Below are positions 3,449 through 26,921 of a stretch of DNA of 33,956 nt, one piece after another. The position numbers and the translations under genes are program-made. The notes under the pieces were generated by a model. The model had not been told where the DNA came from. It saw only the letters and a program-made list of their open reading frames with translations, and made no database searches. The number at the start of each line of letters is the position of its first letter. Positions within the stretch are counted from its first letter, which is position 1. The stretch covers positions 1 to 33,956 of the forward strand of contig CALGRI010000373.1 of the NCBI GenBank assembly GCA_937880875.1. The letters are read 5' to 3'. The stretch comes from an uncultured Pseudomonadota bacterium (GTDB taxonomy: Bacteria > Desulfobacterota > Desulfobacteria > Desulfobacterales > Desulfobacteraceae).

Positions 3449-3459
3449 AGGAGAAAAAA

Positions 3460-4092: not shown

Positions 4093-4125
4093 GTTGGACG
4101 TATAAACACAGGAGAAAAATAGACC

Positions 4126-6509: not shown

Positions 6510-6526
6510 ATCCTTTTCTCCTTATC

Positions 6527-7297
6527 TTATAAAACCTTTTCATCCTCTTTAAGGATTCTGACAAGTTCAGTTACCTGATCATCCACAGATCCCGCAAGCA
6601 TTTTTGCACCGGATCGTTCAGGTACAGATTCCAATTTTTCAATCGTAACTTTGCCTTGAGATACGTCAATACCCAGTTCAGAAAGCTCAATCTCCTTAAT
6701 CTCTTTTTTCTTGGCTTTCATGATGTCAGGAAACTTGGGGTATCTTGGTTCATTCAGGCCCTTTGTTGCCCCGATCACACAGGGGAGACTCATTTCAATG
6801 ACCTGTATTTTCCCACCTTCAGCTTCTCTTTGGGCAATTGCTTTACCTCCATCAATAGTCAGAGAAGAGACTTCATTTACAATGGGCATGCCAAAGAATT
6901 TAGCCAGGCGGTACTGGGTCTGAAAACTTTCTGTATCAACAGATCCTTTTCCCGTAAAAATCATATCTGGCTTCCCATCCTGATCCATGACCGCTTTTAA
7001 GGCCTTTGCTGTCAGGTCACTGTCCAGAAACTGGCTGTCGGTTTTAACAAGGATAGCCCTGTGGGCACCCATGGCCATGGCACTCCTTATTGTTGTTACA
7101 GCTGAAGCTTTACCCACCGTCACAACGACAACCTCGCCGCCTTGCTTTTCCACCAGGCTGACCGCTTCTTCAATCCCGTATTCATCATAGGGGTTGGACA
7201 CAAATTTAATTTCTGAATCTTCAAACCCGTTGTCACCAGCAAGTTTTATGCTTGCTGCAGTGTCAGGTACATGTTTTACACATACACAAATTTTCAT
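6527..7297 (-). CDS. etfB: Electron transfer flavoprotein beta subunit
   Basis: 256 aa; 'MKICVCVKHVPDT', 'NPYDEYGIEEAV', 'FTGKGSVDTESFQTQYRLA'. Confidence 0.95.
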   Translation of the reverse strand: MKICVCVKHVPDTAASIKLAGDNGFEDSEIKFVSNPYDEYGIEEAVSLVEKQGGEVVVVTVGKASAVTTIRSAMAMGAHRAILVKTDSQFLDSDLTAKALKAVMDQDGKPDMIFTGKGSVDTESFQTQYRLAKFFGMPIVNEVSSLTIDGGKAIAQREAEGGKIQVIEMSLPCVIGATKGLNEPRYPKFPDIMKAKKKEIKEIELSELGIDVSQGKVTIEKLESVPERSGAKMLAGSVDDQVTELVRILKEDEKVL

Positions 7298-7311
7298 TAT
7301 TCCGCTTCCTT

Positions 7312-9732: not shown

Positions 9733-9763
9733 TATTGTAAATCTCCTTTAAATCAATTTTTTC

Positions 9764-10789
9764 TTATTCTTTACCATTAAAAAAATAACGTAAAATTTTG
9801 TTTTTAGTCTTTCTGATATTCATTTCGTAAAAATATGAAAATCCCCCGGGATAATATATCATTACCAGGATTAATACCAGAGCATAAATAACCAGATTCA
9901 ATCCCGGCAGATTTGTCAGGTTGGATCGGACAATTTCCATGAGAAATATAAAGGGAAATGCAATAACAGCCCCACCCCATAAACTTCCTCTTCCGCCTAT
10001 ATATGCTACGGCAAGAACCTCAACAGTTTTTGAGGTATGCATGATGTCCGGGGTCAAAATACCATAAAAATGGGCATAAAATCCACCAAGAACACCTGCT
10101 ATTGCACAGGACAGAGTAAAATTAAAAACCCGGTAATTAACCGGATTGATTCCCGAAGTTCTTGCAGCATCCATGTTCTGGCCAATGGCCTGGAAGGCCA
10201 GCCCAATTTTTGAGCGGACAATCCATTTACAAACCAGGTAGATTAAAAACAACAATATGATAATAAGAAAATAATATAGCACATTTGAATCGGTCTCAAA
10301 AAGACGGGGAACACGAAGGCCTAAAGGTCCCCGGGTCAGCCAGACCATTTTAGTTGCAAGCCCCATAATCGCCAGACCGAAAAACCAGGAAAGACATGCC
10401 GCGAAAATCCCTCTGAGACGCAGAGAGATCATTCCGATAATCAGCCCCATAGAGCCTGCGGTAATTCCACCTGCCACCATGGCCAGCCAGGGAGATAACC
10501 CCAGGTTGACGACCAGAAGTGCCGAGGTATAACCTCCAAAACCGGCTACTGCGGCATACCCGAAGTTGACAATATTAATATAGCCGGCTGTCAAGTCAAA
10601 TCCCACACTCATGGCTGCAATGAAGCCGCTGTAAATCAGCCACCTGAGCATATACTCCTGGTTGAAAGGCGGGATAAAAGGAAGGGCAAATAATAAGACC
10701 AGTCCTGATAATCCAGCCGGCGTCAGGCATAATTTATCAAGCAACTTATCAAATGGATTCATTTGCTGACTTGTTATTGTGTTATCCAT
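9764..10789 (-). CDS. Branched-chain amino acid-type ABC transporter permease (LivM family)
   Basis: 341 aa hydrophobic; 'GFDLTAGYINIVNFGYAAVAGFGGYTSALLV', 'GGRGSLWGGAVIAF'. Confidence 0.92.
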   Translation of the reverse strand: MDNTITSQQMNPFDKLLDKLCLTPAGLSGLVLLFALPFIPPFNQEYMLRWLIYSGFIAAMSVGFDLTAGYINIVNFGYAAVAGFGGYTSALLVVNLGLSPWLAMVAGGITAGSMGLIIGMISLRLRGIFAACLSWFFGLAIMGLATKMVWLTRGPLGLRVPRLFETDSNVLYYFLIIILLFLIYLVCKWIVRSKIGLAFQAIGQNMDAARTSGINPVNYRVFNFTLSCAIAGVLGGFYAHFYGILTPDIMHTSKTVEVLAVAYIGGRGSLWGGAVIAFPFIFLMEIVRSNLTNLPGLNLVIYALVLILVMIYYPGGFSYFYEMNIRKTKNKILRYFFNGKE

Positions 10790-10821
10790 ATAATCTCCTA
10801 TTTTTCCAATGATTTGACAAA

Positions 10822-11850
10822 TTATTTGTCTAGGGCACCGCGGACATCTGAACCAAATATCCCACTGGGTTTAAAAATCAAAATCAACATAATCAAGGCG
10901 GAAGGAATAACAAAATCCCATCCTGAACCGAAATATTCAACTGTAATTGCCTTAAGCAAAGCCACCATGAATGCACCGGCTACTGCTCCCAGAATATTTC
11001 CAAGACCTGAGAGAATAACTACAAACCATGCCAGATATAAAGGTTCTAAACCCACAGTGGGGTATGAAGGATACATGAATAAAAGGCTGCCACCGGCCAC
11101 AGCTGAAAGGGCACAGGCAAGGGAAATAGTTAAGAGAACAACATTCTCAATATCTATACCCACAATCTGAGCGCCTGTGATATCCTGAGAAACCGCCCGT
11201 ATTGACATACCCGTGCGGGTATAAGTCATAAAAAACCAGAAAAGTGCAACAATTACGGCCGAAATCACAAAGGCCATGGCTCTGTCCCTGGATATGAACA
11301 CATCTGCAATGGAAATCGGCATTCCGCTCCAATACGCGACAATGCCTTTGAACTCAGCTCCGAATATGAGCTGATGCATGTTAACCAAAAGGACACTTAA
11401 CCCGACACAGAGTAAGAAAGAATTCATTACCCAGTTATCAGAGGAGCGCCTTCTCAGGGGGCCAAACACAATTTTTTCCGCAATAATACCGCTGATAGCC
11501 CCCGCTATGGCGGCACAGACGATGGCGACCAAAGGGCCAATCACTGCCATGAATGACTCTGGATTTTCACTGATATAATTGCTGATGGGAGTAAATACAT
11601 AATAGGCCGTCAAAGAACCGATCATAAAGAATTCACCATGGGCAAACATGGCAATATTGAGTACACCCAGCATCAGAGTAAGGCCTGTGGCGACCAACGC
11701 AAGCATGCCGCCTGTGATTATTGTATTAACCAGCAGGTAAGGACCGGAATTTATCGCTGCAAACACGGCAATCAAAATCGTTGCCACGATAGATATGCCT
11801 GCTGAGGATTTTGTCCAGGTTAAAAATTTGGAAACATAGTTATTTGACAT
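10822..11850 (-). CDS. Branched-chain amino acid-type ABC transporter permease (LivH family)
   Basis: 342 aa; 'TLMLGVLNIAMFAHGEFFMIGS', 'GLGNILGAVAGAFMVALLKA'. Confidence 0.92.
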   Translation of the reverse strand: MSNNYVSKFLTWTKSSAGISIVATILIAVFAAINSGPYLLVNTIITGGMLALVATGLTLMLGVLNIAMFAHGEFFMIGSLTAYYVFTPISNYISENPESFMAVIGPLVAIVCAAIAGAISGIIAEKIVFGPLRRRSSDNWVMNSFLLCVGLSVLLVNMHQLIFGAEFKGIVAYWSGMPISIADVFISRDRAMAFVISAVIVALFWFFMTYTRTGMSIRAVSQDITGAQIVGIDIENVVLLTISLACALSAVAGGSLLFMYPSYPTVGLEPLYLAWFVVILSGLGNILGAVAGAFMVALLKAITVEYFGSGWDFVIPSALIMLILIFKPSGIFGSDVRGALDK

Positions 11851-11874
11851 GAATTTATTTCTCCAAAAAGAAAA

Positions 11875-12582
11875 TTAAACGCCTAGAAATACTTTTCTGA
11901 CATAGGGATCATCTGCCAGGTCATGACTTTTGCCTTCCAGGCCAACTTTACCATTTTCAAGGATATATCCTCGATCAGTGACAGCCAGGGTCTTGGTGAC
12001 ATTTTGCTCCACCAAAAGGATGGTCACGCCTGCTTTAATAAGAATATCAAGGGATTCAAACACATTTGCCACCAATTGTGGTGCAAGCCCAAATGAAGGT
12101 TCATCCACCAGAAGCAGTTTGGGATCAGACATCATACCACGGCCAATGGCCAGCATTTTTCTCTCCCCTCCACTCATGGTACCGGCCAGTTGATCCTTTC
12201 TTTCAGCCAGGCGGGGAAAAAGGCTGAACACAAAGTCAAGGCGTTCATTCTGGACTTTTTTGTCCTTGATAATATAGGCACCCATGTAAAGATTTTCCTG
12301 CACCGTCATATTTACAAACAGATTTAATTCCTCAGAAACAAAAGAAATTCCTTTTTTTGTGATCTGAGATGCAGGAAGTCCTGTAATATTTTCTCCATTG
12401 AAAAAAATACTGCCTCCCATAGGAGATATCAGACCTGCAATGGTTTTCATGGTGGTGCTTTTTCCGGCGCCATTGGGTCCTACAATACAGACATACTCAC
12501 CCTTCTCTATATTTAAAGAGACTGAACGTAATATCTGCAGGTATCCATATCCTGCATCAAGATTTTTCACTTCTAACAGCAT
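11875..12582 (-). CDS. ABC transporter ATP-binding protein (LivF family)
   Basis: 235 aa; Walker A GPNGAGKST, signature MSGGERKM, Walker B LLLVDEPSFGLAP. Confidence 0.93.
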   Translation of the reverse strand: MLLEVKNLDAGYGYLQILRSVSLNIEKGEYVCIVGPNGAGKSTTMKTIAGLISPMGGSIFFNGENITGLPASQITKKGISFVSEELNLFVNMTVQENLYMGAYIIKDKKVQNERLDFVFSLFPRLAERKDQLAGTMSGGERKMLAIGRGMMSDPKLLLVDEPSFGLAPQLVANVFESLDILIKAGVTILLVEQNVTKTLAVTDRGYILENGKVGLEGKSHDLADDPYVRKVFLGV

Positions 12583-12633
12583 AAAGTCTCCGTTGATTCT
12601 TAAAGTTAATTGTCATCTGAGCTATCCGATTCA

Positions 12634-13347
12634 CTATCCGAGATAGGCTTTGGTAACCTTTGGATCATTTGCTACTTCTTCTGTTAAGCCTTCAGCTATT
12701 TTTGTTCCGAACTGGATACATAAAAGCCTGTTACACACTGCCATGATAAGCTGCATGATATGTTCGATCATAAGAATGGTAATGCCTTTTTTGCTGATCT
12801 TTTTAATGATTCCCATGATATCTTTCAGTTCTCCTTCACTGAGACCTGAAGCCATTTCATCCATGAACAAGACTTTGGGATTGCTGGCAAGCGCACGTGC
12901 CAAATCCAGGCGTTTGAGCTGAACTGTGTTAAGCTGTTCCGCCACAACCGTTTCCTCCATGGGGAACTCTACAAAAGCAAGCATTTGTCTGGAATGCTCA
13001 ACCGGGTCCTTAACCCTTCCGGCTTTATTACCAAATATGGTGGCCGTCATTACGCTTTCAATGGCCGTCATTTTTGGAAATGGACTGGGAATCTGGAATG
13101 TGCGGGAAAGACCGTTACGACACATTTTTTCAGGAGTTAAACCCGTAGTATTCTTCCCAAACATTTTTACTGTTCCTTCAGTTGGGGGATTTAACCCGGA
13201 AATGGCATTTATAAATGTTGTTTTCCCGGCCCCGTTGGGACCGATCAAACCATAGATATCCCCTTCATATAATGTCATGGAGACATTGTTTACTGCGATC
13301 AAACCACCAAATCTTTTCGTTAAATTATTGGTTTCCAATACAATCAT
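12634..13347 (-). CDS. ABC transporter ATP-binding protein (LivG family)
   Basis: 237 aa; GPNGAGKTTFINAISGL, 'VLFMDEMASGLSEGE'. Confidence 0.92.
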   Translation of the reverse strand: MIVLETNNLTKRFGGLIAVNNVSMTLYEGDIYGLIGPNGAGKTTFINAISGLNPPTEGTVKMFGKNTTGLTPEKMCRNGLSRTFQIPSPFPKMTAIESVMTATIFGNKAGRVKDPVEHSRQMLAFVEFPMEETVVAEQLNTVQLKRLDLARALASNPKVLFMDEMASGLSEGELKDIMGIIKKISKKGITILMIEHIMQLIMAVCNRLLCIQFGTKIAEGLTEEVANDPKVTKAYLG

Positions 13348-13381
13348 TTTCGCCTCTAATTCTATTGATTTTATAGATTAA

Positions 13382-13419
13382 ACAAACAGGGGATAACCAT
13401 TTTCGTATCCCCTGTTTGT
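13382..13419 (-). terminator. Intercistronic stem-loop between livJ-like and livG-like genes
   Basis: Perfect 14-bp stem ACAAACAGGGGATA ... TATCCCCTGTTTGT with a 10-nt loop. Confidence 0.75.
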
Positions 13420-13431
13420 ATTCATGTCAGG

Positions 13432-14688
13432 CTATTTTTGTTTGAAATCCGCTTGTTTCCAGTCATCAGGATAGATGATGTTACTTTTTCCGTCCATGTA
13501 TTGAAGAACGGGGAAAAAGAAAGCGTCGGAAGCAATGACAGGATCAGGTAGTGTTTCTGCGGTATACTTGTACTCATTCATGATAAGGGCACCGTCCGCC
13601 TTGCCGTATGTCAGTTTGCCCGTATTGAGTTCACTGATAACGACCTCGTGGATGGATTCTTTATCGAGTTTTCCATGTTTTTCAATGGTTCTTTTGGCAA
13701 TTTTGATGAAAAAATTGGCATAATCGTATGACAGTCCGGATGCTGAAGGACTCGGGTTGTATCCGAATTTAGCCTTGATTGATTCTGCCCAGTCCTGGGC
13801 AGCCTTTGTTGTAAGCTCGGGGATCATGTCCAGAACGTAGTTTGAAGAATTTCCTGTCAGCTTGTACCAGTCGGCATTCCAGCCGAACCCATCGGCAATG
13901 ATTACGGCTTTAACTCCGACCTCACTGGCCTGTTTGATAAAACCCGAGATGGAAGGTGCGGATGTGGATGTTCCGGCCAGGACTGCCGCCCCGCCTTTTT
14001 TATACTTGCTCAGAAGAGAATAGAAATCGGTCTGGGTGAAGGGGAAGTAATCTTCGGAAAGAACTGTCCATCCTGTAGCTTCAAAACCCTTTTTGACTGC
14101 TGCTCCCACGCTTCTGCCCCAGTCAGTCTCTTCGCCGTAAATGGCTACGATCTTTTTTTCAGGTGTGAATTTACCGCTTGCAATAGCTGCATTGATACTC
14201 TCTACATAACCCGGAATAAGGTCTCCGGGAATTGGCCATCCCTTGGCAGCCCAATAACTGTATTTTTCAGGATCTGATTTATATTTTTCATTTACAATCT
14301 CGGCTGCACCCATTGCGAACAAATGCTGCACTTTGTACTGGACCGCAACATCCATTACCGCCGCTGCGACCGAACTGTGCCAATTCAGTATGGCAACCTG
14401 AACATCCTTTGATTCCGCAGCTTCTGCATAGGCGCTTGTGGCTTTTGCCGGGTCTGATTGAGAGTCGATCCATACAAGCTCTATCTTGTAATCACCAATT
14501 TTATAATCGATGTTTTCCATGGCCATTGTGACAGATCCCTTGAATTCACCACCGGTTTTAGCCGATGGACCGGTGAAGGGACCCAATACTCCAAGCTTAA
14601 AAGTTTCTGCTGCGAATGCCCCCGTTGAAAAAATAAAAAGAAATGCTGCGAAAAAAGCGATGATGAGTTGAACTTTTTTTGTACCCAT
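13432..14688 (-). CDS. ABC transporter substrate-binding protein (LivJ/Peripla_BP_6 family)
   Basis: Signal peptide 'MGTKKVQLIIAFFAAFLFIFSTGAFAAETFKLGVLGPFTGPSAKTGGEFKGSV'. ATG at 14688 is preceded by GGAGGC. The longer ORF start (14769) lies upstream of a putative sigma54 promoter. Confidence 0.92.
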   Translation of the reverse strand: MGTKKVQLIIAFFAAFLFIFSTGAFAAETFKLGVLGPFTGPSAKTGGEFKGSVTMAMENIDYKIGDYKIELVWIDSQSDPAKATSAYAEAAESKDVQVAILNWHSSVAAAVMDVAVQYKVQHLFAMGAAEIVNEKYKSDPEKYSYWAAKGWPIPGDLIPGYVESINAAIASGKFTPEKKIVAIYGEETDWGRSVGAAVKKGFEATGWTVLSEDYFPFTQTDFYSLLSKYKKGGAAVLAGTSTSAPSISGFIKQASEVGVKAVIIADGFGWNADWYKLTGNSSNYVLDMIPELTTKAAQDWAESIKAKFGYNPSPSASGLSYDYANFFIKIAKRTIEKHGKLDKESIHEVVISELNTGKLTYGKADGALIMNEYKYTAETLPDPVIASDAFFFPVLQYMDGKSNIIYPDDWKQADFKQK

Positions 14689-14752
14689 AAATCTTGCCTC
14701 CAAAATTAATGTAAATAAAAAATAGTGCCACACAAACGAACATTTTTTCGGT

Positions 14753-14768
14753 TGCAGTTTGTATGCCA
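14753..14768 (-). promoter_or_regulatory. Putative sigma54 -24/-12 promoter for the livJGFHM-dmgdh-etfBA operon
   Basis: Minus strand TGGCATACAAACTGCA: GG-N10-GC; close to consensus TGGCACN5TTGCA. Confidence 0.72.
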
Positions 14769-14947
14769 AAGCTACTTGTTCTTTTGATGAAAAACAAAAA
14801 AACAGTCGATTAAAGCTATTTTTAACCTTGACACAGTAATATGTAGAATAAATATCTTAAAAAAAACTTAAAAATACAAGGTAAAATTTGGTTTTGATAG
14901 TTTTATTTTAAAATGGTTATCCCTGTTTTCAATCATTTTTCATCTGC

Positions 14948-16393
14948 TTATTTTGATCTAAATTCTTTTCGGTTCAACCCATACTTTTTAAGCTTATAAT
15001 GGAAAGACTGGGGGGAAATCCCTAAACTTCTGGCAGCTTTTGCCGCATTACCGCCAGTGTAGTTTAAAGCATTGCTAATGATCTGCCTTTCATTTACTGC
15101 CTGGGTTTGGAGCAGGTCTGAAGAAAAAATATCTTTGCTTGAAACCTGGGTATTGGAAGCCTTTGCTTCAAACTGTTTTGGCAGTATTTTTTTTGCAAAC
15201 GAAAAAATATGGGATGGCAAATGTGCAAACCGGATAGTACTGCCGCCGGCTATCAAATTCATTGAGGCTTCAATAACATGTTTGAGTTCCCGGACATTTC
15301 CAGGCCAATGATATTTCCTAAACAAGGAAGACACATTTTTTGAGATATGGGTCACCTGCTTATTTAATGTTTTATTATATTCTACAATAAAATACCGGAC
15401 CAGCTCATTTAATTCATCTTTCCTTTCCCTTAAAGGCGGCAGCATGATGAAGACCACTCCCATCCTGTAAAACAAATCCATTCTTAATGCGCCCTTCTGG
15501 ATAATCTCCAACGGTGACTGTCCCACTGAACTGATTATTTTTATATCCAGATCTTGTTCTTTTAGAGACCCTAGTTTTCTAACCTTCTTCTCCTGAATAA
15601 CCCTTAAAAATTTAGCCTGAAGTGCCAACGGCATGGAATCCAGCTCATCTAAAAAAATGGTTCCCCCATCAGCCTGCTCGAAAAGACCGCGTTTATTGAT
15701 AGCACCGGTAAAAGCCCCCTTTGAAGTCCCGAACAAAATCCCTTCCAAAAGGTTTTCCGGAATCGCCGCACAATTTATCGGAATAAAGGGCTTTTCCCTT
15801 CTTGAACTGTGATTATGGATAGACTGGGCAAACAATTCCTTTCCCGTTCCCGTCTCTCCATAAATCATGATTGGAGATGGCGAATTAGAGGACATGGTGG
15901 CAATCCGCACAGCATTAAGCATATCTGGATCTGATCCAATGATATCAGAAAAATGAAACTGCGCACCATTATCCGCCTTCTTCTTTTTGGAAGCCCTATG
16001 ACCCATCACAATGGTTTTTTCCAAAAGTTGATAGTCCTTACAAAAGTTAATGGCGCCTATCAATATTCCGGATTTATATAAGGGGTAAACATTATTGATG
16101 ATATTGGCTACTTTGCCGAATCTAGTCTGGTACACCTTTGGTTCATTCATTATGGCCTGACCGCTTTTCAGGCAACGCATGGTGGTGCTGGTATCATCGG
16201 TAAGCTGGTAAATATCTATAATTCTCTTTCCGATCACATCTTCGGGATCTAAATCATCTATCCTGGCCTGGGTTTCGTTATAAAACAATACCTTCCCCGT
16301 GGTATCCGCAATCAATATGCCTTCATGCATGGATGATAAAACCCTGTAAATATCAATATCCTCCAGAATAAGCTTTTCCATCATATCACCCAT
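14948..16393 (-). CDS. Sigma54-dependent transcriptional activator (PAS - AAA+ - Fis HTH)
   Basis: 481 aa; GETGTGKE, GAFTGA, WPGNVREL, HTH 'TGGNAAKAARSLGISPQSFHYKLKKYG'. Paralogous to the ORF at 220. Confidence 0.93.
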   Translation of the reverse strand: MGDMMEKLILEDIDIYRVLSSMHEGILIADTTGKVLFYNETQARIDDLDPEDVIGKRIIDIYQLTDDTSTTMRCLKSGQAIMNEPKVYQTRFGKVANIINNVYPLYKSGILIGAINFCKDYQLLEKTIVMGHRASKKKKADNGAQFHFSDIIGSDPDMLNAVRIATMSSNSPSPIMIYGETGTGKELFAQSIHNHSSRREKPFIPINCAAIPENLLEGILFGTSKGAFTGAINKRGLFEQADGGTIFLDELDSMPLALQAKFLRVIQEKKVRKLGSLKEQDLDIKIISSVGQSPLEIIQKGALRMDLFYRMGVVFIMLPPLRERKDELNELVRYFIVEYNKTLNKQVTHISKNVSSLFRKYHWPGNVRELKHVIEASMNLIAGGSTIRFAHLPSHIFSFAKKILPKQFEAKASNTQVSSKDIFSSDLLQTQAVNERQIISNALNYTGGNAAKAARSLGISPQSFHYKLKKYGLNRKEFRSK

Positions 16394-16613: not shown

Positions 16614-16629
16614 TGGCATGGATCATGCA
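16614..16629 (+). promoter_or_regulatory. Putative sigma54 -24/-12 promoter for the mttB2 operon
   Basis: TGGCATGGATCATGCA: GG-N10-GC, about 45 nt upstream of the 16674 start codon. Confidence 0.72.
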
Positions 16630-16673: not shown

Positions 16674-18092
16674 ATGCATTTTTTCGAATATTTTTCAACC
16701 AATGAATTAGAAAAAATCCATGAGGCCACGCTGATTATAATGGAGACAGCAGGCCTTAATTTTTCTTATGAACCCGCAAGAAACCTTTTTGCCAAGGCTG
16801 GCTGTAAAATAGACGGACACAGGGTATTTTTTCCAAAAAAACTGGTTGAAGAACAGATCAAAAAAGCCCCGTCTCAATTTACTCTCCATGCCAGGAATCC
16901 TGAAAAAAATGTCACGATCGGGGGAGATAATATCGCTTTTATGCCGTGTTACGGCGCCCCTTTTGTCAATGACCTAGATAAAGGCCGAAGAAAGGGAACC
17001 CTTGAAGATTTTAACAACTTTGTTAAATTGGCATATGAAAGTCCTTACATGGATATCACCGGCGGTATGATGACAGAGCCAAATGATATTCCTGTTGCCC
17101 ATAGGAATGCTGAAAGAATTTATGGTGCAATGATATTGTCTGACAAACCGTTTATGGGAGCCGGAACCGGTGCCATGGATGCACGACAAACCATTGAAAT
17201 GGCATCTCTTGTTTTTGGAAGCCGTAAAGAAATGGCAGACAAACCGCCTTTTATCAGCATTCTGTGTTCTTTAACCCCTTTGGGTTTTGATGACAAGATG
17301 TGCGGCGGCATCATGGAATATGCCAGAGCCGGTATGCCGCAATTGATATCCTCCCTTGCCATTGCAGGGGCCACCTCCCCGGTCACCATGGAGGGAACCC
17401 TGGTGGTCCAGAATGCTGAAATACTGGCGGGTATCACTCTGAGCCAGCTTGTCCGGGAAGGCGCACCCGTTGTATTTGCAGGGTCATCATCAGCCACTGC
17501 CATGCGGTACGGCACTTTGAGTATCGGCGCACCGGAAATGGCCATCAATACAGCTGCCACAGCCCAAATGGGTCGTTTCTATAATCTCCCTGTCCGGGGC
17601 GGCGGGGCTTTAACTGATTCAAAAACAGTGGATTCCCAGGCTGCCTATGAATCCATGATGAGCATGATGATGGCCACCATGAGCGGCATTAACTTTGTTC
17701 TTCACTCTGCCGGCATCCTTGAAGGGTATATAACGGCATCCTATGAAAAATTCATCATTGACAATGAAATCTGCGGGATGTGCAAGAGGATCTTACGGGG
17801 AGAGGACATCACTGCTGAAAAACTGGCAGTAGATGCGATCATGCAAGTCGGTCCAGGGGGTGAATATCTAACCCATATGCATACATTCCAGCATTTTAAG
17901 GAGGCGCTTTACACCCCGCTCATGGAAGAACGGGACAATTTTACCAGCTGGAAAAGCAAAGGCGCTTTGACCATGGAGCAGCGGGCCAATGCCCGGTACA
18001 AAAAAATCCTTGAAACCTATGAAGAACCTGATATGGATGATAATATCCGAAAAGACCTGGATGCGTATATCAAATCAGTTCGAAATACATGA
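16674..18092 (+). CDS. MttB-superfamily methyltransferase, non-pyrrolysine
   Basis: 472 aa; paralog of the ORF at 2027 (HARNPEKNV, YGAPF, VQNAEILAGITLSQLVREGAPVVFAGSSSA); no TAG interruption; RBS AGGAGAG. Confidence 0.93.
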   Translation: MHFFEYFSTNELEKIHEATLIIMETAGLNFSYEPARNLFAKAGCKIDGHRVFFPKKLVEEQIKKAPSQFTLHARNPEKNVTIGGDNIAFMPCYGAPFVNDLDKGRRKGTLEDFNNFVKLAYESPYMDITGGMMTEPNDIPVAHRNAERIYGAMILSDKPFMGAGTGAMDARQTIEMASLVFGSRKEMADKPPFISILCSLTPLGFDDKMCGGIMEYARAGMPQLISSLAIAGATSPVTMEGTLVVQNAEILAGITLSQLVREGAPVVFAGSSSATAMRYGTLSIGAPEMAINTAATAQMGRFYNLPVRGGGALTDSKTVDSQAAYESMMSMMMATMSGINFVLHSAGILEGYITASYEKFIIDNEICGMCKRILRGEDITAEKLAVDAIMQVGPGGEYLTHMHTFQHFKEALYTPLMEERDNFTSWKSKGALTMEQRANARYKKILETYEEPDMDDNIRKDLDAYIKSVRNT

Positions 18093-18108
18093 ATAAGGAG
18101 AGATTAAC

Positions 18109-18984
18109 ATGTTACTGGGATTACACACATACAGCTTTCATCTGCACGGCATGGGACAGAACTGGGGAGGGCACACACTCTCCTGGCCAAGGGTAATGGA
18201 TATTTTTAAACTCATGGACTGGGCCGTGGACAATGGTCTGGACGGGCTTCACATCACCGCGGTTGACTGCGAATCCACGGATGCAGCACAGCTTACAAAA
18301 ATCAAGGACGCGGCAAAAGATCATGGGCTTTACCTGGAATACAATTTTTCCCTGGATGAAGAATTTGACCCAAGACTGACCCATCCCCTGGAGCAGGGAA
18401 TCAAAATTGCCCATGCCCTTGGAACTGATATTGGAAAAGTCAGCCTGGATTTGAGACGTCCCCGTCCCCTCTGCGCAAGCCGTCATCATCCGGACATTAT
18501 GAAACAGCTTATCCATATTGCAAAGCTTACCCAAAAAGTTGTACCCTTGTTAGAAAATACGGGTGTCAAACTGGCATTTGAAAACCATACTGAATCTTTT
18601 GCCAGTGAGATATTATGGCTGATTGATGAGGTCAACCATGCAAGTGTGGGTGCCTGTGTGGATACGGTTAATTCAGTAATGGTTCTGGAAGATCCCATGA
18701 CAGCCATTGAAAACCTGGCGCCCAGATCCTTTACAAATCATTTTTGTGATCACAGGATTGAAAGGGATCAGTTCGGGTGCAAATTTACAGGTGTAGCCTG
18801 CGGGGATGGGGACATTGATTTGAAAAAGGCCCTCCAGATTTTTAAAGAAACCTCGTCCATGAACCGTATCAACATTGAAGTGGAATGGGATGCAGGAGAT
18901 GACGGGCCTGAGACCGCCCGGAAAAAAGAGTATGAAGCGGTTGTAAAAAGCATCCAATACTGCCGTAATGTTTTAAATATTTGA
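18109..18984 (+). CDS. Sugar phosphate isomerase/epimerase-like TIM barrel (AP_endonuc_2 family)
   Basis: 291 aa; 'KLAFENHTESFASEILWLIDEVNHASVGACVDTVNS', 'INIEVEWDAGDDGPE'; RBS AAGGAGAG. Confidence 0.82.
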   Translation: MLLGLHTYSFHLHGMGQNWGGHTLSWPRVMDIFKLMDWAVDNGLDGLHITAVDCESTDAAQLTKIKDAAKDHGLYLEYNFSLDEEFDPRLTHPLEQGIKIAHALGTDIGKVSLDLRRPRPLCASRHHPDIMKQLIHIAKLTQKVVPLLENTGVKLAFENHTESFASEILWLIDEVNHASVGACVDTVNSVMVLEDPMTAIENLAPRSFTNHFCDHRIERDQFGCKFTGVACGDGDIDLKKALQIFKETSSMNRINIEVEWDAGDDGPETARKKEYEAVVKSIQYCRNVLNI

Positions 18985-19008
18985 ACCTATTAATTATTGG
19001 AGGATACA

Positions 19009-20445
19009 ATGGGCATAGCAACCGAAAATCTATATTTTAAACCGAGTCTGCGTGTTATTAACGATGCACAGATCAGCCGGATTCATGCGGCAACACTTGA
19101 GGTCCTGGAACGCACAGGCATTAAAATGACGCATTCAGAGGGACTTGAAATATTAGAGGCTGCCGGAGCAAAAGTCACAGGTAATCGTGTCAGAATTCCT
19201 TCGTGGATGGTGGAGGATGCTATTGCCGCTGCCCCACACCGGGTGATTCTTGGCAATCAAAAAGGGGAGCGCACTGTTTTCCTTGAAAAGGACAACTCCT
19301 ACTTTGGTCCCAGTCTTGACTGCATTGATTACATGGACCCCAAAACCCATGAAAGAGTCCGGTTTACAAGTGACCATGTCAAGGCAACAGCCGCCTTGTG
19401 TGATGGTCTTGATCGGTTCGACTGGTGCATGATCATTGGCATGGCAGATGATGTGCCGCCGGATATTGCCGATCGCGTGGTGGTGAGAAATACATTGGAA
19501 AATTGCGAGAAACCACTTGTTTTCTGCTGCAAAGACACCAACAGCGTCAAGGATATTTATGAAATGGGACTGCTATTGTGTGGCGGCAAGGAAAATTTTG
19601 ACAAAGCCCCCTGTCTTGTCCATTATTCCGAACCGATTTCCCCTTTGCTCTATTATGATCCTGCTGTGGATAAAATTATTTTCTGTGCTGAAAAATCCAT
19701 CCCCCTGATCAATTTTCCGGCACCACAGGCCTGTGGTTCCGCACCGGCCACCTTTGCCGGCACCATTGTACAGGGAAGTGCAGAATCCTTAAGCGGCCTG
19801 GTTCTTCACCAGCTTGTCAATCCGGGCGCCCCCTTTATCTATGGTGCATTCACCACGATAATGGACATGAAAACAACTATTTTTTCCTATGGTGCCTCTG
19901 AACTGAGCCTGATGACAGGTGCCATGGCACAGATGGCACAACATTATCAATTGCCTTTTTTTGGGACGGCCGGCGCAACGGATTCAAAATTCTGTGATGC
20001 CCAGGCAGGAGCAGAGGTGGCATTTCAATGCCTTTCCTCTGCCGCTGTCGGTTCAGGTCTGATCCATGACTGCTCAAGCTGGATGGATCATGGCAGCCTG
20101 GTATCGCCTGAATTTATGGTATTAACCCATGACATTGTGGATTCGGTCCATCATTTTATGAAAGGCATCCCGATAACCAAAGAGACCCTTGCCATTGATG
20201 TCATTGACCAGGTAGGTCCAGGCGGTCACTACCTTACCCAGAAACATACCATGGATAATTTCAGGCAGATAAAATACTCAGAACTTTTTGATCGAAGTAT
20301 TTATCAAAAATGGGTGGATGCCGGTGCCAAAAAATTTGAAGACCGCCTACAGGCCCTGACTTTGAAAAAAATGAAGCACGAGCCAAGAGTGCTTCCTGCA
20401 GAAATCATTAAAGAGCTGGACCGGATGCAGGCATCCTGGAAATAA
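19009..20445 (+). CDS. MttB-superfamily methyltransferase, non-pyrrolysine (third paralog, divergent)
   Basis: 478 aa from ATG 19009 (preceded by TTGGAGGATACA; the annotated TTG at 18997 overlaps the RBS). 'SRIHAATLEVLERTGIKM', 'GASELSLMTGAMAQMAQHYQLPFFGTAGATDSK', 'DQVGPGGHYLTQKHTMDNFR'. Confidence 0.92.
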   Translation: MGIATENLYFKPSLRVINDAQISRIHAATLEVLERTGIKMTHSEGLEILEAAGAKVTGNRVRIPSWMVEDAIAAAPHRVILGNQKGERTVFLEKDNSYFGPSLDCIDYMDPKTHERVRFTSDHVKATAALCDGLDRFDWCMIIGMADDVPPDIADRVVVRNTLENCEKPLVFCCKDTNSVKDIYEMGLLLCGGKENFDKAPCLVHYSEPISPLLYYDPAVDKIIFCAEKSIPLINFPAPQACGSAPATFAGTIVQGSAESLSGLVLHQLVNPGAPFIYGAFTTIMDMKTTIFSYGASELSLMTGAMAQMAQHYQLPFFGTAGATDSKFCDAQAGAEVAFQCLSSAAVGSGLIHDCSSWMDHGSLVSPEFMVLTHDIVDSVHHFMKGIPITKETLAIDVIDQVGPGGHYLTQKHTMDNFRQIKYSELFDRSIYQKWVDAGAKKFEDRLQALTLKKMKHEPRVLPAEIIKELDRMQASWK

Positions 20446-20478
20446 AAAGATTTTAATCCATTTTAGGAACAATTGTAA

Positions 20479-20886
20479 ATGAATATACAATTCAATCATA
20501 AAAACTGTTCAGGATGTGGTATCTGCAAACTGGCCTGCAGCATTATAAATTTCAAACAGGTCACATCTGCCAAGGCACTGTTGAGGATTGAAGGATTATT
20601 CCCGGCACCCGGGCATTATCAGATCCATTTTTGTGATCAATGCGGTGCTTGCGCTGACGTCTGTCCTGTAGATGCCATTACGCTTGAAGACGGCATTTAC
20701 CGGATCATTGAAGAAGACTGCACTGCCTGCCATGAATGCGTGGAGGCATGCCCCCGATCGGTCATGATTATTAAAGCAGGAGATGACCTGCCGGCCAAAT
20801 GTATTCTTTGCGGAGAATGTGCACAGGTCTGCCCCAGAGAGGCCATTATGATATCTGAAAAAGAAAATATAGCGGAGGGCAAATAA
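20479..20886 (+). CDS. 4Fe-4S polyferredoxin, probable AOR electron-transfer subunit
   Basis: 135 aa with four CxxCxxCxxxC motifs (CSGCGICKLAC, CDQCGACADVC, CTACHECVEAC, CILCGECAQVC); directly upstream of the AOR gene. Confidence 0.92.
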   Translation: MNIQFNHKNCSGCGICKLACSIINFKQVTSAKALLRIEGLFPAPGHYQIHFCDQCGACADVCPVDAITLEDGIYRIIEEDCTACHECVEACPRSVMIIKAGDDLPAKCILCGECAQVCPREAIMISEKENIAEGK

Positions 20887-22775
20887 TGGATGGATATGCA
20901 GGCAAAATTCTACGGATTAACCTTGGTATAGAAGAAATTTTAAAACCTAAGCTGTCAGAAAAAATGTGTGATGAGTTCATCGGCGGCAGGGGCTTTGTGG
21001 CAAAAACCTTGTATGAAGAACTGTTGCCCGATACTGACCCTTTTGATGAGAACAACCTCTTTGTTATTGCCACAGGTCCTTTGTCCGGGCATTTTCTTCC
21101 GGCCAGCGGCAAAACCCACTTTGGATCAAAATCCCCGGCCACGGGCGGATATGCAGATTCAAATATGGGGGGGCATTTTGGACCGGCCTTAAAATATGCT
21201 GGATATGATATGGCGGTCATCACTGGAAAAGCAAAGGTTCCAAGCTATCTGTATATCAAGGATGACACCGTTGAAATCAGGCCTGCCAAAGACTATTGGG
21301 GCAAGGGATCACTCACCTGCGAAGAAATGATGAAAAAAGACCTTGGAGAAGACTTTCAGATTCTGACCATTGGTCCTGCCGGGGAAAAGCTTGTAAAATT
21401 TGCCTGCATTTCCCATGATTTCGGACGTCAGGCCGGCCGAACCGGCATTGGTGCAGTCCTGGGGTCTAAAAACATCAAGGCCATTGCTGTCAAGGGCACG
21501 GGCAGCATCCCAGTTCATGATATTGAAAAAGCCTATGCCAAAGGGCGACAGGCATTTGAAAAAGTCTCTCAAAAGCCGGGATTCAAGGGCTGGGCCCCTG
21601 AAGGAACAGCCGGTATCACTGACTGGGTTAATGAGGTCGGTGCTTTTCCCACTAAAAATTTTAAGACCTCCCATATTGATCACAGCCATATGATTAATGG
21701 GAAAATGGTTCTGGAGCGGATAAAAATAACGGATAAGGGATGTTATTGCTGTCCCACGCCATGTGGCAAATACGGCCACACTAAAACGGCTGTCGGATCT
21801 GCCTATTTGGAGGGCCCGGAATTTGAAACCATTGCGCTGTTTGGCGGCAGCTGCATGCTCAAAACCATTGAAGAGGTGGCCTATGCCAACTATCTGTGTG
21901 ATGAGCTGGGTATTGATACCATATCAGGTGCTTCTGTTGCTGCCTTTGCCATTGAATGCTTTGAAAAGGGAATAATTTCCACAGATGAGATCGGAAAAAA
22001 AGTTGAATTCGGGGACCTTGAATCTATTGTTTACCTGTTGAATCTGATCAGCTTAAGACAGAATGATCTTGGTGATCTGCTTTCTCAAGGGGTTAAAATT
22101 GCTTCGGAAAAAATCGGTGGCGGCTCTGAAAAATTTGCCATTCATGTCAAGGGCCTGGAATGGACGGGATATGAATGCCGCAATGCGCCGTCCATGATGC
22201 TGGCCTATATGACGGCCGATATCGGAGCTCACCATAACCGTGCCTGGGTGCTGGGCCATGATGTGGTAGGGGCGGCCACCAATGTGCATGACTTGATCTC
22301 TGCCGGTGCTGTTGAAGATAAAAGACCCAAAGCAATTGTTTCGGGCAGGGATTCAGCCGGATTTGTCATTGATTCCCAGCATACCCGCCCGGCCTTTGAC
22401 TTGCTTGGATGTTGCCGCCTCCAGATGATGGAGCTGGGTTTTGAAGTTGAAAATTATGCTGAATTGTATTCAGTTATTACGGGGAAAGAAATAACCTGGG
22501 ATGACCTTATCAAGATCTCTGAAAAAGTTTGGAATCTGACACGGATGATATCGGCAAGAGAAATCAAGGATTTTGGCCGAAGCCTGGATTATCCGCCGCC
22601 GCGGTTTTATGAGGAACCCACCCCCAGCGGTCCCAACAAGGGGCACTACCTCTGCCTTGAGGAGCTGGACGAACTTTTGGATGCCTATTATAGCGCGCGG
22701 GGATGGGATAAAAACGGCATCCCGACAAAAGAAACACTGGTTCGTGTCGGGTTAAAAGATATGATAAAATTATGA
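20886..22775 (+). CDS. Aldehyde ferredoxin oxidoreductase family (tungsten) protein
   Basis: 629 aa; 'GYAGKILRINL', 'FIGGRGF', 'ATGPLSG', 'MGGHFGPALKYAGYDMAVITGKA', 'GRTGIGAVLGSKNIKAIAVKG', CxxC-type cluster 'CYCCPTPCGKYG'. Confidence 0.95.
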   Translation: MDGYAGKILRINLGIEEILKPKLSEKMCDEFIGGRGFVAKTLYEELLPDTDPFDENNLFVIATGPLSGHFLPASGKTHFGSKSPATGGYADSNMGGHFGPALKYAGYDMAVITGKAKVPSYLYIKDDTVEIRPAKDYWGKGSLTCEEMMKKDLGEDFQILTIGPAGEKLVKFACISHDFGRQAGRTGIGAVLGSKNIKAIAVKGTGSIPVHDIEKAYAKGRQAFEKVSQKPGFKGWAPEGTAGITDWVNEVGAFPTKNFKTSHIDHSHMINGKMVLERIKITDKGCYCCPTPCGKYGHTKTAVGSAYLEGPEFETIALFGGSCMLKTIEEVAYANYLCDELGIDTISGASVAAFAIECFEKGIISTDEIGKKVEFGDLESIVYLLNLISLRQNDLGDLLSQGVKIASEKIGGGSEKFAIHVKGLEWTGYECRNAPSMMLAYMTADIGAHHNRAWVLGHDVVGAATNVHDLISAGAVEDKRPKAIVSGRDSAGFVIDSQHTRPAFDLLGCCRLQMMELGFEVENYAELYSVITGKEITWDDLIKISEKVWNLTRMISAREIKDFGRSLDYPPPRFYEEPTPSGPNKGHYLCLEELDELLDAYYSARGWDKNGIPTKETLVRVGLKDMIKL

Positions 22776-22790
22776 TAAAGGAAACTTAAA

Positions 22791-23996
22791 ATGAGTCGCA
22801 TAACGATTCCACAAACTTTTAATACTAAAACAGCAGATGCCGTTGTCATCGGCGGCGGCATCGTGGGTGCAGCCACGGCTTTCTGGTTATCCAAAACCGG
22901 TATGAAGGTCATTCTGGTTGAAAAACGAGACGGTCTGTCAAGCCTTACCACTGCAGCCAGTGCAGAATGTTTTCGCACCCAGTTCACGGAAAAATCCATG
23001 GCCGATATTGCCCTTACCAGTGTGGAAATGTTTGAAAACTTCCGGGACGTGGTGGAACTGACGAATATTGACATTCATCTTTGCCAGAAAGGATACCTGT
23101 TTGTAACGGATGATCCGGCCCAGATACCGGATCTTGAAAAAGCCATTCAGACCTATCAGACCCTTGGAATACCCGGATCTGAACTGATCACGGGGAAAGA
23201 TCTTCACGACCGCTTTGCCTTTCTTGCGCCGGATGCTCTTGCCGCCACGTTCAACAACAGGGATGGATGGCTGTCCACCCATGAAACCACCTATGGGTTT
23301 GCAAAAGGGGCAAAAAATGTTGATTTTTTCATGAGAACAATGGTTACGGGCATCCAAAAGGATAACCAGGGAATCTGTGCTGTAGAAACAGATAAGGGTC
23401 TGATCAGCACCCGCCTTGTTGTCAACTGCGCAGGACCCTATGCCGGGGTCATTGGTAAAATGGCCGGTCTTGACATGCCGTTAACAACGATTCGGCGCCA
23501 AAAAGCATATATTCGGACCAGCCATCCGCTGGTGCCCATGGATGCGCCTTTTACCGTGGATCTTAAAAACCACAGCTATTGGCGGCCGGAAGCAGGCGGC
23601 GTACTCTGCGCATGGGTGGACCCAGGAGAACCGGAAAGCCCGCCTGCAGATGAGCTGCCCACCGACTGGGACTTTGCTGCGGAGTCCATCCACCGGGCAT
23701 CCCGCCTGAACCCGTTTTTTGAAACCATTGCCGATGACCTGAAAGCAGACGACGTTGATGTATCAGCAGGAATGTATGTTTACACCCCAGATGACAAACC
23801 CGTGATCGGGCCTTGTGAAGAAATCAAGGGATTCCATCTGAATTGCGGGTATTGGTGCGGTGTGATGATGTCTCCTGCAGCCGGTAAAAGAGTGGCAGAT
23901 ATTGCCACAGGCAAAATGGATAACAAGGATAATCCCTTGCGCTACAGTCGATTCAAAGAAGGAGATTTTGAAAAAGGAGATACCTTTTTAAAATAA
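22791..23996 (+). CDS. FAD-dependent oxidoreductase, DAO family (sarcosine oxidase beta / glycine oxidase-like)
   Basis: 401 aa; 'DAVVIGGGIVGAATAFWLSKTGMKVILVEK', 'VVNCAGPYAGVIGKMAG', 'YTPDDKPVIGPCEEIKGFHLNCGYWCGVMMSPAAGKRVADI'. Confidence 0.9.
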   Translation: MSRITIPQTFNTKTADAVVIGGGIVGAATAFWLSKTGMKVILVEKRDGLSSLTTAASAECFRTQFTEKSMADIALTSVEMFENFRDVVELTNIDIHLCQKGYLFVTDDPAQIPDLEKAIQTYQTLGIPGSELITGKDLHDRFAFLAPDALAATFNNRDGWLSTHETTYGFAKGAKNVDFFMRTMVTGIQKDNQGICAVETDKGLISTRLVVNCAGPYAGVIGKMAGLDMPLTTIRRQKAYIRTSHPLVPMDAPFTVDLKNHSYWRPEAGGVLCAWVDPGEPESPPADELPTDWDFAAESIHRASRLNPFFETIADDLKADDVDVSAGMYVYTPDDKPVIGPCEEIKGFHLNCGYWCGVMMSPAAGKRVADIATGKMDNKDNPLRYSRFKEGDFEKGDTFLK

Positions 23997-24104
23997 AAAC
24001 AGATTTCTATCTGGTTTACCTTGACACATAGCTCAACCGGTACCAGATTAGAACCTGCACCAGTTTAAAACGATGAACAGAGAATAAATGATCGGGGTAA
24101 TAAT

Positions 24105-26921
24105 TTGGAAAAAAAGATTTATGCAATTGGGTGTGCTGTTCTGGCCATTGATATGAAGCACAGCGCCAAAAAGCTGGGGATTGATATTGATTATAAATTC
24201 CTGGAGGCAGGACTTCACAACAATCCAAAACTGCTCAAGGAAAAGCTTCAAACCGCTATTGATGAAATTTCAGCAACAAGTTTGTGCGACCGCATTATAA
24301 TCGGGTATGGTATCTGCGGTAAAGGAACCATTGGCATTCAATCCCGGGGCGTTCCCTTGACCATTCCCAAAGTGCATGATTGTGTTGCTTTATTCCTGGG
24401 GGGAGATCAGGCCTATAAACGTGAATTTAAAAAATATCCCGGGACATATTATCTTTCAGCCGGATGGTGTGAAGAAAAAACAGAACCTATGTCTCAGAGA
24501 AAACAGTGGGCCTATTTTGGTGATAAAAAATTAAACTTCAATGACCTGGTTGAACAACACGGCAAAGATGCTGCCCGGGAAACATTTGATTTTCTCAATT
24601 CATGGCAGAAAAACTATCAAAGGGTTGCTCTTATTGAAACCGGCGCAAAAACATCCCCCAGGTATGAAAAATTGGCCCTGGAGATGGCCAATGAATACAA
24701 GTGGAAGTATGATAAAATAAAAGGGGGGCAAGCCTTGATCGAAAAAATGATCACCGCCCTTGATTCCAGCGATGACATCCTGTTTGTACCGCCGGAACAT
24801 GTGATCGGGTTTGATGCAATACAATCCACCCTGTCTGCCAATCCCATCCTGAATTTTAAAGCAAATTTGGATGACACCTCTTCTAAGATAGAGATACAAA
24901 ATCAAAAAATTCATATCAACTCTTATATAAAAACAGGATTGGGTATTGATGCCGGGGGCACCTACACAGATGCGGTGATTTATGATCTTAAAACAAATAA
25001 AACTCTTTGCAAAAGCAAATCTTTGACCACAAAATGGGATTTTACCAAAGGAATTCACAGCGCATTAAAAAAACTGGATCAGGAAAAACTGCTCCAGGTG
25101 GAATTGATTGCTTTGTCCACAACCCTTGCAACCAATGCCATTGTCGAAAATGAAGGTCAAAAAGTCGGTGTGATTCTCATGCCGCCCTATGGCCTTGACG
25201 TTGATAAAAACTTATCCTTTCACCCCAAATCCATTATTAAAGGGCAGCTGGAAATCACGGGTAAAGAAATCATTGCCATTGATCCGGATGAGGTCAGACA
25301 AAAAGCGGTACAAATGATTGAAAACCATGGAGTAACCGCCTTTGCAGTGTCAGGATTTGCAGGTTCCATTAATCCTGAGCATGAAATTAAGGTCAAAGAA
25401 ATTATTCATCAACACACGGGCCTCTTTGTCAGCTGTGGTCATGAATTATCTGACACCTTAAATTTTCAGACAAGGGCTATAACTGCCATGCTTAATGCAC
25501 GGATTATCCCGCGGCTGGCCAGCCTGCTTCTTGATCTTGAAAAAGTCATGGCAGCCCTTGGTATTCTTGCCCCAATCGTCGTGGTCAAAGGTGATGGAAC
25601 ATTAATGAGTTCATCCATGGCCAAACAACGACCCGTTGAAACCATTCTTTCGGGTCCTGCTGCCAGCGTTGCAGGGGCAAGACATCTGACGGGAATTAAA
25701 GATGCTCTGGTCGTGGACATGGGGGGAACAACAACCGATACTGCAGCTCTGACAGACAACCTGGTAAACCTCAATGAAAAAGGATCAATTGTAGGGGGGC
25801 ACAGGACCCATGTTAAAGCCCTTGAAATTCGAACGACAGGCCTTGGCGGAGACAGTTTAATCGAATTTACAAAGGGACAATTTTCCATCGGTCCCAAAAG
25901 GGTGGCTCCAATTGCCTGGCTGGGTCAAATGTACCCAGGGACTTACGAGGCGTTACAATTTTTAAATCAAAACCTGCATCGCCATGCCACCACTACCCGG
26001 AAAATGCAGATTCTTGCTTTGACCGGCTCTATAAAGCAGCTTGAATTGACCTCCATGGAAAAAAAAATTGTTTCCCTGCTTACAGCAAGACCGCATTCCA
26101 TTGAGGAACTTGTTCAAAAAACCAATGTTCTCGCCGACTTCAGCCTTCCTTTGCAGCGGCTTGAAGAAAATTTTATCCTGCAGAGATGCGGACTTACCTT
26201 AACGGATCTTTTACATATCACAGGTCAGTTTATTAAATGGGACACACAGATGGCTCAAGAATACTGCCAGATGTTTTGCTTTCTGACTAAAAAATCAATG
26301 CCTGAATTGACCCGGCATCTTCTGGATATGGGAGTTAACCTGTTAACCATTGAACTTTTAAAACGCCAGCTGGATGATGAGACAGATCCTGAAGCGATAA
26401 ACACCTGCCCCGTATGTAAAGTCCTGATAGATAATCTGCTGACCCATGAAAATCCTCATTATGAGGTTTCCATTAAGCTTAAACGTCCCGTTATCGGCAT
26501 AGGCGCTCCCACTAAATTTTTTCTTCCCAAAGCAGTAAAACCCCTTGGTGCAAAAGCCATCCTGCCTGAGGATGCAGATGTGGCCAATGCCATAGGTGCC
26601 ATTACCTCTAGTGTGGTCATAAAAAAACAATTAAGAATTGTACCCGGGGACAAGGGCGAGTTTATAGTGGAAGGGATTGCCGGAACCCGTCACTTTAAAA
26701 GCTTTAAAAATGCAGACCGTTTTGCCAGAAAAAATTTGGTCCGAATTGTGAGGGAAAGGGCCCGGGTTTCCGGGACCAGCTGCCAGGAAGTTATGCTGGA
26801 AACCCAGGACAAGATCCCAACCACTGCCGGCGGTGATCCGATTTTTATGGGAAGAACCCTTTATGCCAGCTTAACAGGCAGGCCTGACATTGTATTAAAA
26901 GAATCGGTGAAGCCGTCATAA
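24105..26921 (+). CDS. DUF1638 domain fused to hydantoinase/oxoprolinase-like ASKHA domain; candidate corrinoid protein activator
   Basis: 938 aa, TTG start after GGGGTAATAAT. N-terminal DUF1638-like 'IIIGYGICGKGTIGIQ ... IPKVHDCVALFLGG'. ASKHA motifs 'GLGIDAGGTYTDAVIYD' and 'DALVVDMGGTTTDTAAL' (HyuA-like). Confidence 0.82.
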   Translation: MEKKIYAIGCAVLAIDMKHSAKKLGIDIDYKFLEAGLHNNPKLLKEKLQTAIDEISATSLCDRIIIGYGICGKGTIGIQSRGVPLTIPKVHDCVALFLGGDQAYKREFKKYPGTYYLSAGWCEEKTEPMSQRKQWAYFGDKKLNFNDLVEQHGKDAARETFDFLNSWQKNYQRVALIETGAKTSPRYEKLALEMANEYKWKYDKIKGGQALIEKMITALDSSDDILFVPPEHVIGFDAIQSTLSANPILNFKANLDDTSSKIEIQNQKIHINSYIKTGLGIDAGGTYTDAVIYDLKTNKTLCKSKSLTTKWDFTKGIHSALKKLDQEKLLQVELIALSTTLATNAIVENEGQKVGVILMPPYGLDVDKNLSFHPKSIIKGQLEITGKEIIAIDPDEVRQKAVQMIENHGVTAFAVSGFAGSINPEHEIKVKEIIHQHTGLFVSCGHELSDTLNFQTRAITAMLNARIIPRLASLLLDLEKVMAALGILAPIVVVKGDGTLMSSSMAKQRPVETILSGPAASVAGARHLTGIKDALVVDMGGTTTDTAALTDNLVNLNEKGSIVGGHRTHVKALEIRTTGLGGDSLIEFTKGQFSIGPKRVAPIAWLGQMYPGTYEALQFLNQNLHRHATTTRKMQILALTGSIKQLELTSMEKKIVSLLTARPHSIEELVQKTNVLADFSLPLQRLEENFILQRCGLTLTDLLHITGQFIKWDTQMAQEYCQMFCFLTKKSMPELTRHLLDMGVNLLTIELLKRQLDDETDPEAINTCPVCKVLIDNLLTHENPHYEVSIKLKRPVIGIGAPTKFFLPKAVKPLGAKAILPEDADVANAIGAITSSVVIKKQLRIVPGDKGEFIVEGIAGTRHFKSFKNADRFARKNLVRIVRERARVSGTSCQEVMLETQDKIPTTAGGDPIFMGRTLYASLTGRPDIVLKESVKPS

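Follow-up and report, generated by a model that had tools for sequence, protein, structure and literature searches.

A candidate betaine-catabolism operon of Desulfobacteraceae combining MttB-family methyltransferases, a DAO flavoprotein and a FOR-type aldehyde:ferredoxin oxidoreductase

Results

Layout and promoter of the operon

The stretch of DNA analysed here (33,956 nucleotides, hereafter the window) is one whole contig, C373 (CALGRI010000373.1), of the metagenome-assembled genome (MAG) of an uncultured member of the Desulfobacteraceae. The MAG, which comprises 3.63 Mb in 528 contigs, belongs to Desulfobacula, as do its nearest named relatives, likewise MAGs. On the + strand at 16674-26921, the window carries seven genes, M1, TIM, M2, Fd, AOR, DAO and the DUF1638-HyuA fusion in this order, which form a candidate operon for the catabolism of betaines. 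Seven same-strand genes of these families had been claimed for this interval in the original prediction; all seven open reading frames (ORFs) were found in place, and their Pfam domains (MTTB twice, AP_endonuc_2, Fer4, AFOR_N with AFOR_C, DAO, and DUF1638 with Hydant_A_N and Hydantoinase_A) confirmed the families. The proteins have lengths of 472, 291, 482, 135, 629, 401 and 938 aa, respectively, and the intergenic gaps measure 16, 12, 33, -1, 15 and 108 bp along the operon, the ferredoxin gene overlapping the start of the AOR gene by 1 bp. The seven genes are predicted to be co-transcribed.

A sigma-54 -24/-12 promoter element, TGGCATGGATCATGCA (16614..16629, +), was read in the sequence upstream of M1. 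The other examined loci of Desulfobacteraceae carry similar elements ahead of their M1 orthologs, with a score that only 0-2 of 300 shuffles reach in nearly all of them; none was found upstream of the orthologous gene in the examined loci of other families. Divergent to M1, a gene for a sigma-54 enhancer-binding activator with PAS-AAA-Fis architecture (14948..16393, -; Pfam) was identified, an ortholog of which divergently adjoins M1 in almost all of the Desulfobacteraceae loci examined.

The aldehyde oxidoreductase and its ferredoxin

Fd (20479..20886, +) encodes a four-cluster polyferredoxin with 16 Cys in four CxxCxxC...C motifs, a subunit of the aldehyde:ferredoxin oxidoreductase (AOR) that resembles the Fe-S subunits of the AOR partners WOR5, AorA and 9mqx. 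The AOR itself (20886..22775, +; AFOR_N/AFOR_C) has as its best solved relative the formaldehyde:ferredoxin oxidoreductase (FOR) of P. furiosus (1b25; 452 bits, 41% identity), while P. furiosus AOR reached 387 bits. The FOR residues E308, Y416, H437, R481 and R492, which we take to be the active-site set after Hu et al. 1999 and whose identities match the sequence, are all conserved in the operon AOR together with the four cluster Cys. This EYHRR set is kept by every aligned member of the AOR clade, including the most distant ones, from Clostridia and Chloroflexi, at about 50% identity. The complete set is absent from P. furiosus AOR and from each of the host genome's 14 other AORs. By these residues the operon AOR is of the FOR type, and its family suggests that it contains tungsten. 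Glutarate is bound by FOR, which may have glutaric semialdehyde as a substrate; which compound FOR-type enzymes convert in nature is unsettled (PMC12096430).

Other AORs stand next to related genes as well. In the host genome, contig C332 (L178) carries an MttB-AOR pair and contig C324 (L179) a row of DMGDH-like (dimethylglycine dehydrogenase-like), DAO, EtfBA, AOR and MttB genes, in both cases with an AOR of another subfamily. In L091 and L068, a second, distant AOR follows a DAO. Different AOR subfamilies thus accompany different MttB/DAO sets. Several MttB subfamilies were found linked to the single FOR-type AOR clade.

The DAO flavoprotein and the TIM-barrel protein

DAO (22791..23996, +; PF01266) is a predicted FAD amine dehydrogenase of the DAO family. 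Its profile is closest to 1y56_B and to dimethylglycine dehydrogenases, and in its 401 aa Pfam detected the DAO domain only, with no GCV_T folate domain.

TIM (18109..18984, +; PF01261) encodes a xylose-isomerase-like TIM-barrel isomerase/epimerase, a protein that the original prediction had left unexplained. E158, D185 and H211 are invariant and E257 is near-invariant; these presumably constitute the metal-site Glu-Asp-His-Glu of the family. The AlphaFold2 model (predicted local distance difference test, pLDDT, 89) gave Foldseek matches to tagatose/psicose 3-epimerases, IolE and DgpB. TIM ranks among the most tightly linked members of the system.

The DUF1638-HyuA fusion

The last gene (24105..26921, +) encodes a fusion of DUF1638 with a HyuA-type ASKHA ATPase (PF07796, PF05378 and PF01968), in which the two phosphate motifs of the ASKHA part and four Cys of DUF1638 are invariant. 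It is the sole DUF1638 protein of the host genome. The fusion lacks the DUF4445 (PF14574) and ferredoxin domains of RamA and RACo, carrying HyuA domains instead; three PF14574 proteins, i.e. RACo-type activases, are encoded on other contigs. Genetic work has implicated DUF1638, alongside a RamA-like protein, in the reactivation of B12 (PMC5764234; also PMC12478193), and the fusion is a probable corrinoid-reactivation protein. A role as hydantoin or lactam hydrolase was rejected because the scanned ORFs of the window include no Hydantoinase_B gene. With a pLDDT of 50, the model obtained for the structure of the fusion is too poor and was not used. Jaccard overlaps with AOR amounted to 0.53 for the fusion, 0.78 for DAO and 0.86 for TIM; the lower overlap of the fusion suggests that it serves demethylation more broadly.

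Methyltransferases and methyl acceptors

M1 (16674..18092, +; PF06253, 546 bits) belongs to the MtgB-like, non-pyrrolysine (non-Pyl) part of the MttB family and is a predicted betaine:corrinoid methyltransferase. It is 47% identical to MtgB of Desulfitobacterium hafniense (2qne), a degree of identity that does not fix the substrate. M2 (18997..20445, +; PF06253, 303 bits), a second and divergent MttB-family methyltransferase, revealed only 27% identity to M1 and 29% to MtgB. Both match nearly the whole PF06253 profile in open frames with no in-frame TAG. M2 is a variable member, absent from several relatives, and in G021 its position is taken by genes for an MtgC-like corrinoid protein and a pterin methyltransferase. 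The presence of these two genes inside an orthologous operon speaks for methyl transfer belonging to the pathway. In the window, a corrinoid protein and a pterin methyltransferase are encoded outside the operon, at 3460-4926, within an mtgBCA-like unit (2027..4926, +; MttB, corrinoid protein and pterin methyltransferase; Pfam and NCBIfam) that is a possible methyl acceptor for M1 and M2. Together with a sigma-54 activator gene of its own, this unit occupies positions 220-4926 (+) and is probably a complete Mtg-type demethylase.

Altogether, the host genome displays 20 MttB and 15 AOR genes. Three of the 20 MttB genes (contigs C253, C98 and C499) contain an in-frame TAG and are probable pyrrolysine-type trimethylamine methyltransferases beside the many non-Pyl paralogs.

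Conservation and co-occurrence

The original prediction had named a synteny confined to this strain as an outcome that would speak against it; the linkage recurs across several Desulfobacterales families. The gene order named there is kept in Desulfobacula, where seven genomes carry all or most of M1-TIM-(enolase-family)-M2-Fd-AOR-DAO-DUF1638Hyu, some interrupted by contig ends. In most other Desulfobacteraceae genera, however, the shared context of regulator, Liv-type transporter and DMGDH contains M1-DAO-DUF1638Hyu only, Fd-AOR and TIM being located elsewhere in the genome, and in G052 it contains M1-TIM-DAO-DUF1638Hyu. Other families of the Desulfobacterales show varied orders, for example M2-Fd-AOR-DAO-TIM, Fd-BCCT-AOR-DAO-TIM-M1 or AOR-TIM-DAO-M1-Liv-DMGDH, and several of them keep Fd-AOR-DAO with MttB and/or TIM. 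Desulfosarcina alkanivorans (L062) and L058 carry transporters of the betaine/carnitine/choline (BCCT) type within their clusters. In Bacillota (L079) and Clostridia (L085), a FOR-type AOR with its ferredoxin directly follows sarcosine-oxidase-type Pyr_redox, Fe-S and DAO genes, and no MttB occurs in the mapped stretch of these loci, an arrangement that links the AOR with the amine dehydrogenase and not with methyl transfer.

Another variable member, a gene for a 394-aa enolase-superfamily protein, separates TIM from M2 in two genomes of Desulfobacula (L031:9240-10424, -; L032:8707-9891, +). A hydroxyproline or proline betaine route via an HpbD-type epimerase was rejected on this protein (G025/G004), whose best matches are not HpbD and lie below the family cut-offs; hydroxyproline or proline betaine is kept as one substrate option only.

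The AOR clade and DAO also co-occur well beyond their linkage. Among 97 relatives, 21 carry the AOR clade, 20 the DAO and 18 both (p=1.4e-14, these p-values ignoring phylogeny), with p=5e-5 inside the genus and p=3e-6 among the other genera of the family; most of the genomes that carry just one of the two are incomplete or are cut by a contig end at this locus. In 291 class-level genomes, the counts are 34, 35 and 30, respectively (Fisher p=2e-31, again without phylogenetic correction), the 30 genomes with both genes belonging to ten families. In 17 of these 30 the pair lies at most 3.4 kb apart, and in the other 13 both genes are present but unlinked. Orthologs of TIM with at least 53% identity were found in 18 of the 97 relatives, all of them AOR-bearing (18/21; p=8e-17), and TIM tracks DAO as well. 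As the distribution within the genus is patchy and pairs are unlinked, common descent alone is a poor explanation.

Chance proximity of AOR and MttB genes was considered for the host genome alone, where three of the 15 AORs have an MttB no more than two genes away (rough chance 0.005). With 15 AORs and 20 MttBs in one genome, this is unremarkable in itself and was judged weak evidence; the conservation across genomes exceeds chance. The association of AOR and ferredoxin with the MttB-DAO genes, which the original prediction had asserted, was thus borne out by recurrent synteny, by co-occurrence even where the genes are unlinked and by the BCCT genes inside the clusters.

Surrounding genes

On the minus strand at 5577..14769, Pfam revealed genes for EtfA, EtfB, a DAO-GCV_T dimethylglycine-dehydrogenase-like protein and a Liv-type ABC transporter. 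Other Desulfobacteraceae conserve this block as well, on the side of the regulator that faces away from M1, and its folate-linked DMGDH-like protein (7312-9732) has the GCV_T domain. At 32848-33726 (+), just past an Opp-type transporter, the window carries a gene for a beta-keto acid cleavage enzyme (BKACE). Enzymes of this kind are known from carnitine breakdown, and the gene is a possible hint at the substrate of the operon.

Discussion

We read the seven genes as a betaine-catabolism operon, in which corrinoid-dependent enzymes would first demethylate the substrate and the resulting amine would then be cleaved oxidatively, and give this reading a probability of roughly 0.6. The sequences themselves show the gene content with its families, the conserved promoter element, the recurrent linkage and co-occurrence and the FOR-type active site; the reactions and the substrate are our inference. 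M1 (and M2) would demethylate a quaternary amine, loading the methyl group onto a corrinoid protein for transfer to tetrahydrofolate, while the DUF1638-ASKHA fusion would help to hold the corrinoid as Co(I) at the expense of ATP. The DAO flavoprotein, probably with an electron-transfer flavoprotein (ETF), would then oxidise a C-N bond of the demethylated amine and free an aldehyde. The TIM-barrel isomerase/epimerase may act on this aldehyde or its precursor, a step put here because of the tight linkage of TIM to AOR, and the FOR-type AOR would convert the aldehyde to the acid, passing two low-potential electrons to the four-cluster ferredoxin. Recurrent synteny, unlinked co-occurrence and the BCCT genes make the chain from DAO via an aldehyde to AOR, as put forward in the original prediction, the best reading of the data.

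To free formaldehyde we slightly prefer a carboxylate-bearing backbone aldehyde, e.g. glyoxylate or a semialdehyde of the malic, succinic or glutamic type. The same chain with formaldehyde, in which a DAO devoid of a folate domain strips the remaining N-methyls and the FOR-type enzyme yields formate, is possible, though on balance we hold it to be rather unlikely. It would agree with the lack of the GCV_T domain that the neighbour at 7312-9732 has, with the SoxB/DMGDH-like profile of DAO and with the oxidation of formaldehyde by FOR. In Bacillota, this AOR clade comes after genes of the sarcosine-oxidase kind, and the linkage of several MttB subfamilies to one AOR clade is what a common product would lead one to expect. 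However, the folate-linked DMGDH, present with ETF in the same neighbourhood, would capture the C1 unit and so provide for the methyl carbons, and the tightly linked isomerase, which a backbone semialdehyde would need, has no part in formaldehyde oxidation. AORs without the Arg pair (L178, L179) accompany other MttB/DAO sets, suggesting substrate-specific aldehydes, and the Arg pair of the operon AOR likewise favours a semialdehyde; the native substrate of FOR itself may be a C5 semialdehyde (PMC12096430).

Several observations weigh against the pathway as we propose it. As FOR also turns over formaldehyde, the Arg pair is not decisive, and DAO may merely demethylate, yielding formaldehyde. 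The similarity of DAO to proline dehydrogenase-beta, DMGDH and glycine oxidase is weak and does not give the substrate, and no specific chemistry accounts for the role of TIM. AOR and DAO lie outside one operon in 13 genomes, and both could be markers of betaine generalists.

Two further explanations separate the AOR from the degradation of the amine or the genes from one another. That Fd-AOR mainly feeds low-potential electrons to the reductive activation of the corrinoid seems highly improbable to us, even though the ferredoxin shares its operon with corrinoid methyltransferases and an ASKHA protein and the potential of an aldehyde/acid couple is low enough for this purpose. A source of the aldehyde would still be required, the Bacillota AOR-DAO pair has no MttB in its mapped stretch, many MttB loci of the host genome are devoid of an AOR, and the three RACo-type activases are encoded elsewhere. 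The original prediction had suggested such use of the AOR electrons, for which we found no direct support, the DUF1638-ASKHA protein being the better candidate for reactivation. Alternatively, one sigma-54 promoter might co-regulate enzymes that serve separate purposes, namely a demethylase for betaines, an amine dehydrogenase unrelated to it and a scavenger of aldehydes in general. The membership of the operon does vary by species (M2, the enolase-family gene, and Fd-AOR elsewhere in most genera), but AOR, DAO and TIM are found together also in genomes where they are not linked, and the operon AOR is one specific subfamily among the 15 AORs of the genome, which makes this explanation improbable as well.

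In comparison with described systems, M1 resembles MtgB of the MtgBCA system of D. hafniense, and corrinoid and pterin methyltransferase genes are likewise found nearby or inside the operon of relatives. The described versions of the MtgBCA, MtpB, MtcB, MtyB and MthB systems, however, end at the demethylated amine, and none of these non-Pyl MttB systems is reported to go with the set of DAO, FOR-type AOR, ferredoxin and isomerase that is present here. With P. furiosus FOR (1b25/1b4n), the operon AOR shares the Glu, Tyr, His, Arg pair and cluster Cys; it differs in coming from mesophilic sulfate reducers, in its dedicated adjacent polyferredoxin and in being encoded with betaine genes. AorABC of Aromatoleum, WOR5 and 9mqx also have a multi-cluster ferredoxin gene directly 5' of the AOR gene, but the operon lacks the NAD(P)H flavin subunit of the AorC type, its sole flavoprotein being the DAO of another family. 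The DAO shows the fold of the SoxB/DMGDH/proline dehydrogenase-beta type, while the GCV_T domain and the alpha, gamma and delta subunits of heterotetrameric sarcosine oxidase and DMGDH are missing from the operon. Finally, the fusion shares ASKHA ATPase motifs with the RamA/RACo activases and the DUF1638 domain with the DUF1638 protein of split methionine synthase systems (Phaeobacter), yet its ASKHA part is HyuA-type instead of DUF4445, there is no ferredoxin domain, and both domains are fused.

The component families are thus known, whereas their combination appears undescribed. A literature search for AOR or FOR with betaine, sarcosine, MttB or demethylation, in which most subscription journals were not covered, found no link between these genes, and none of the papers searched describes a DAO-aldehyde-AOR chain, in line with the view of the original prediction that this is a candidate for an undescribed pathway. 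We tentatively propose a new anaerobic betaine pathway, in which DAO and a dedicated isomerase would feed a FOR-type tungsten enzyme oxidising a substrate-derived semialdehyde, with energy conserved as reduced ferredoxin and with parallel versions for further methylated amines that rely on AORs of other subfamilies.

If true, FOR-type tungsten enzymes would gain their first clear genomic role outside heat-loving archaea as well as a physiological substrate class. A DAO-isomerase-FOR set found with betaine transporters and methyltransferases addresses two gaps, namely what becomes of the amine after demethylation and what FOR-type enzymes naturally act on. The carriers are marine sulfate-reducing bacteria and include a cultured species, Desulfosarcina alkanivorans, which makes the pathway testable. 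For these organisms, the operon suggests an anoxic oxidation of abundant marine osmolytes that would proceed past the methyl groups, with ferredoxin reduction as energetic gain and bypassing trimethylamine.

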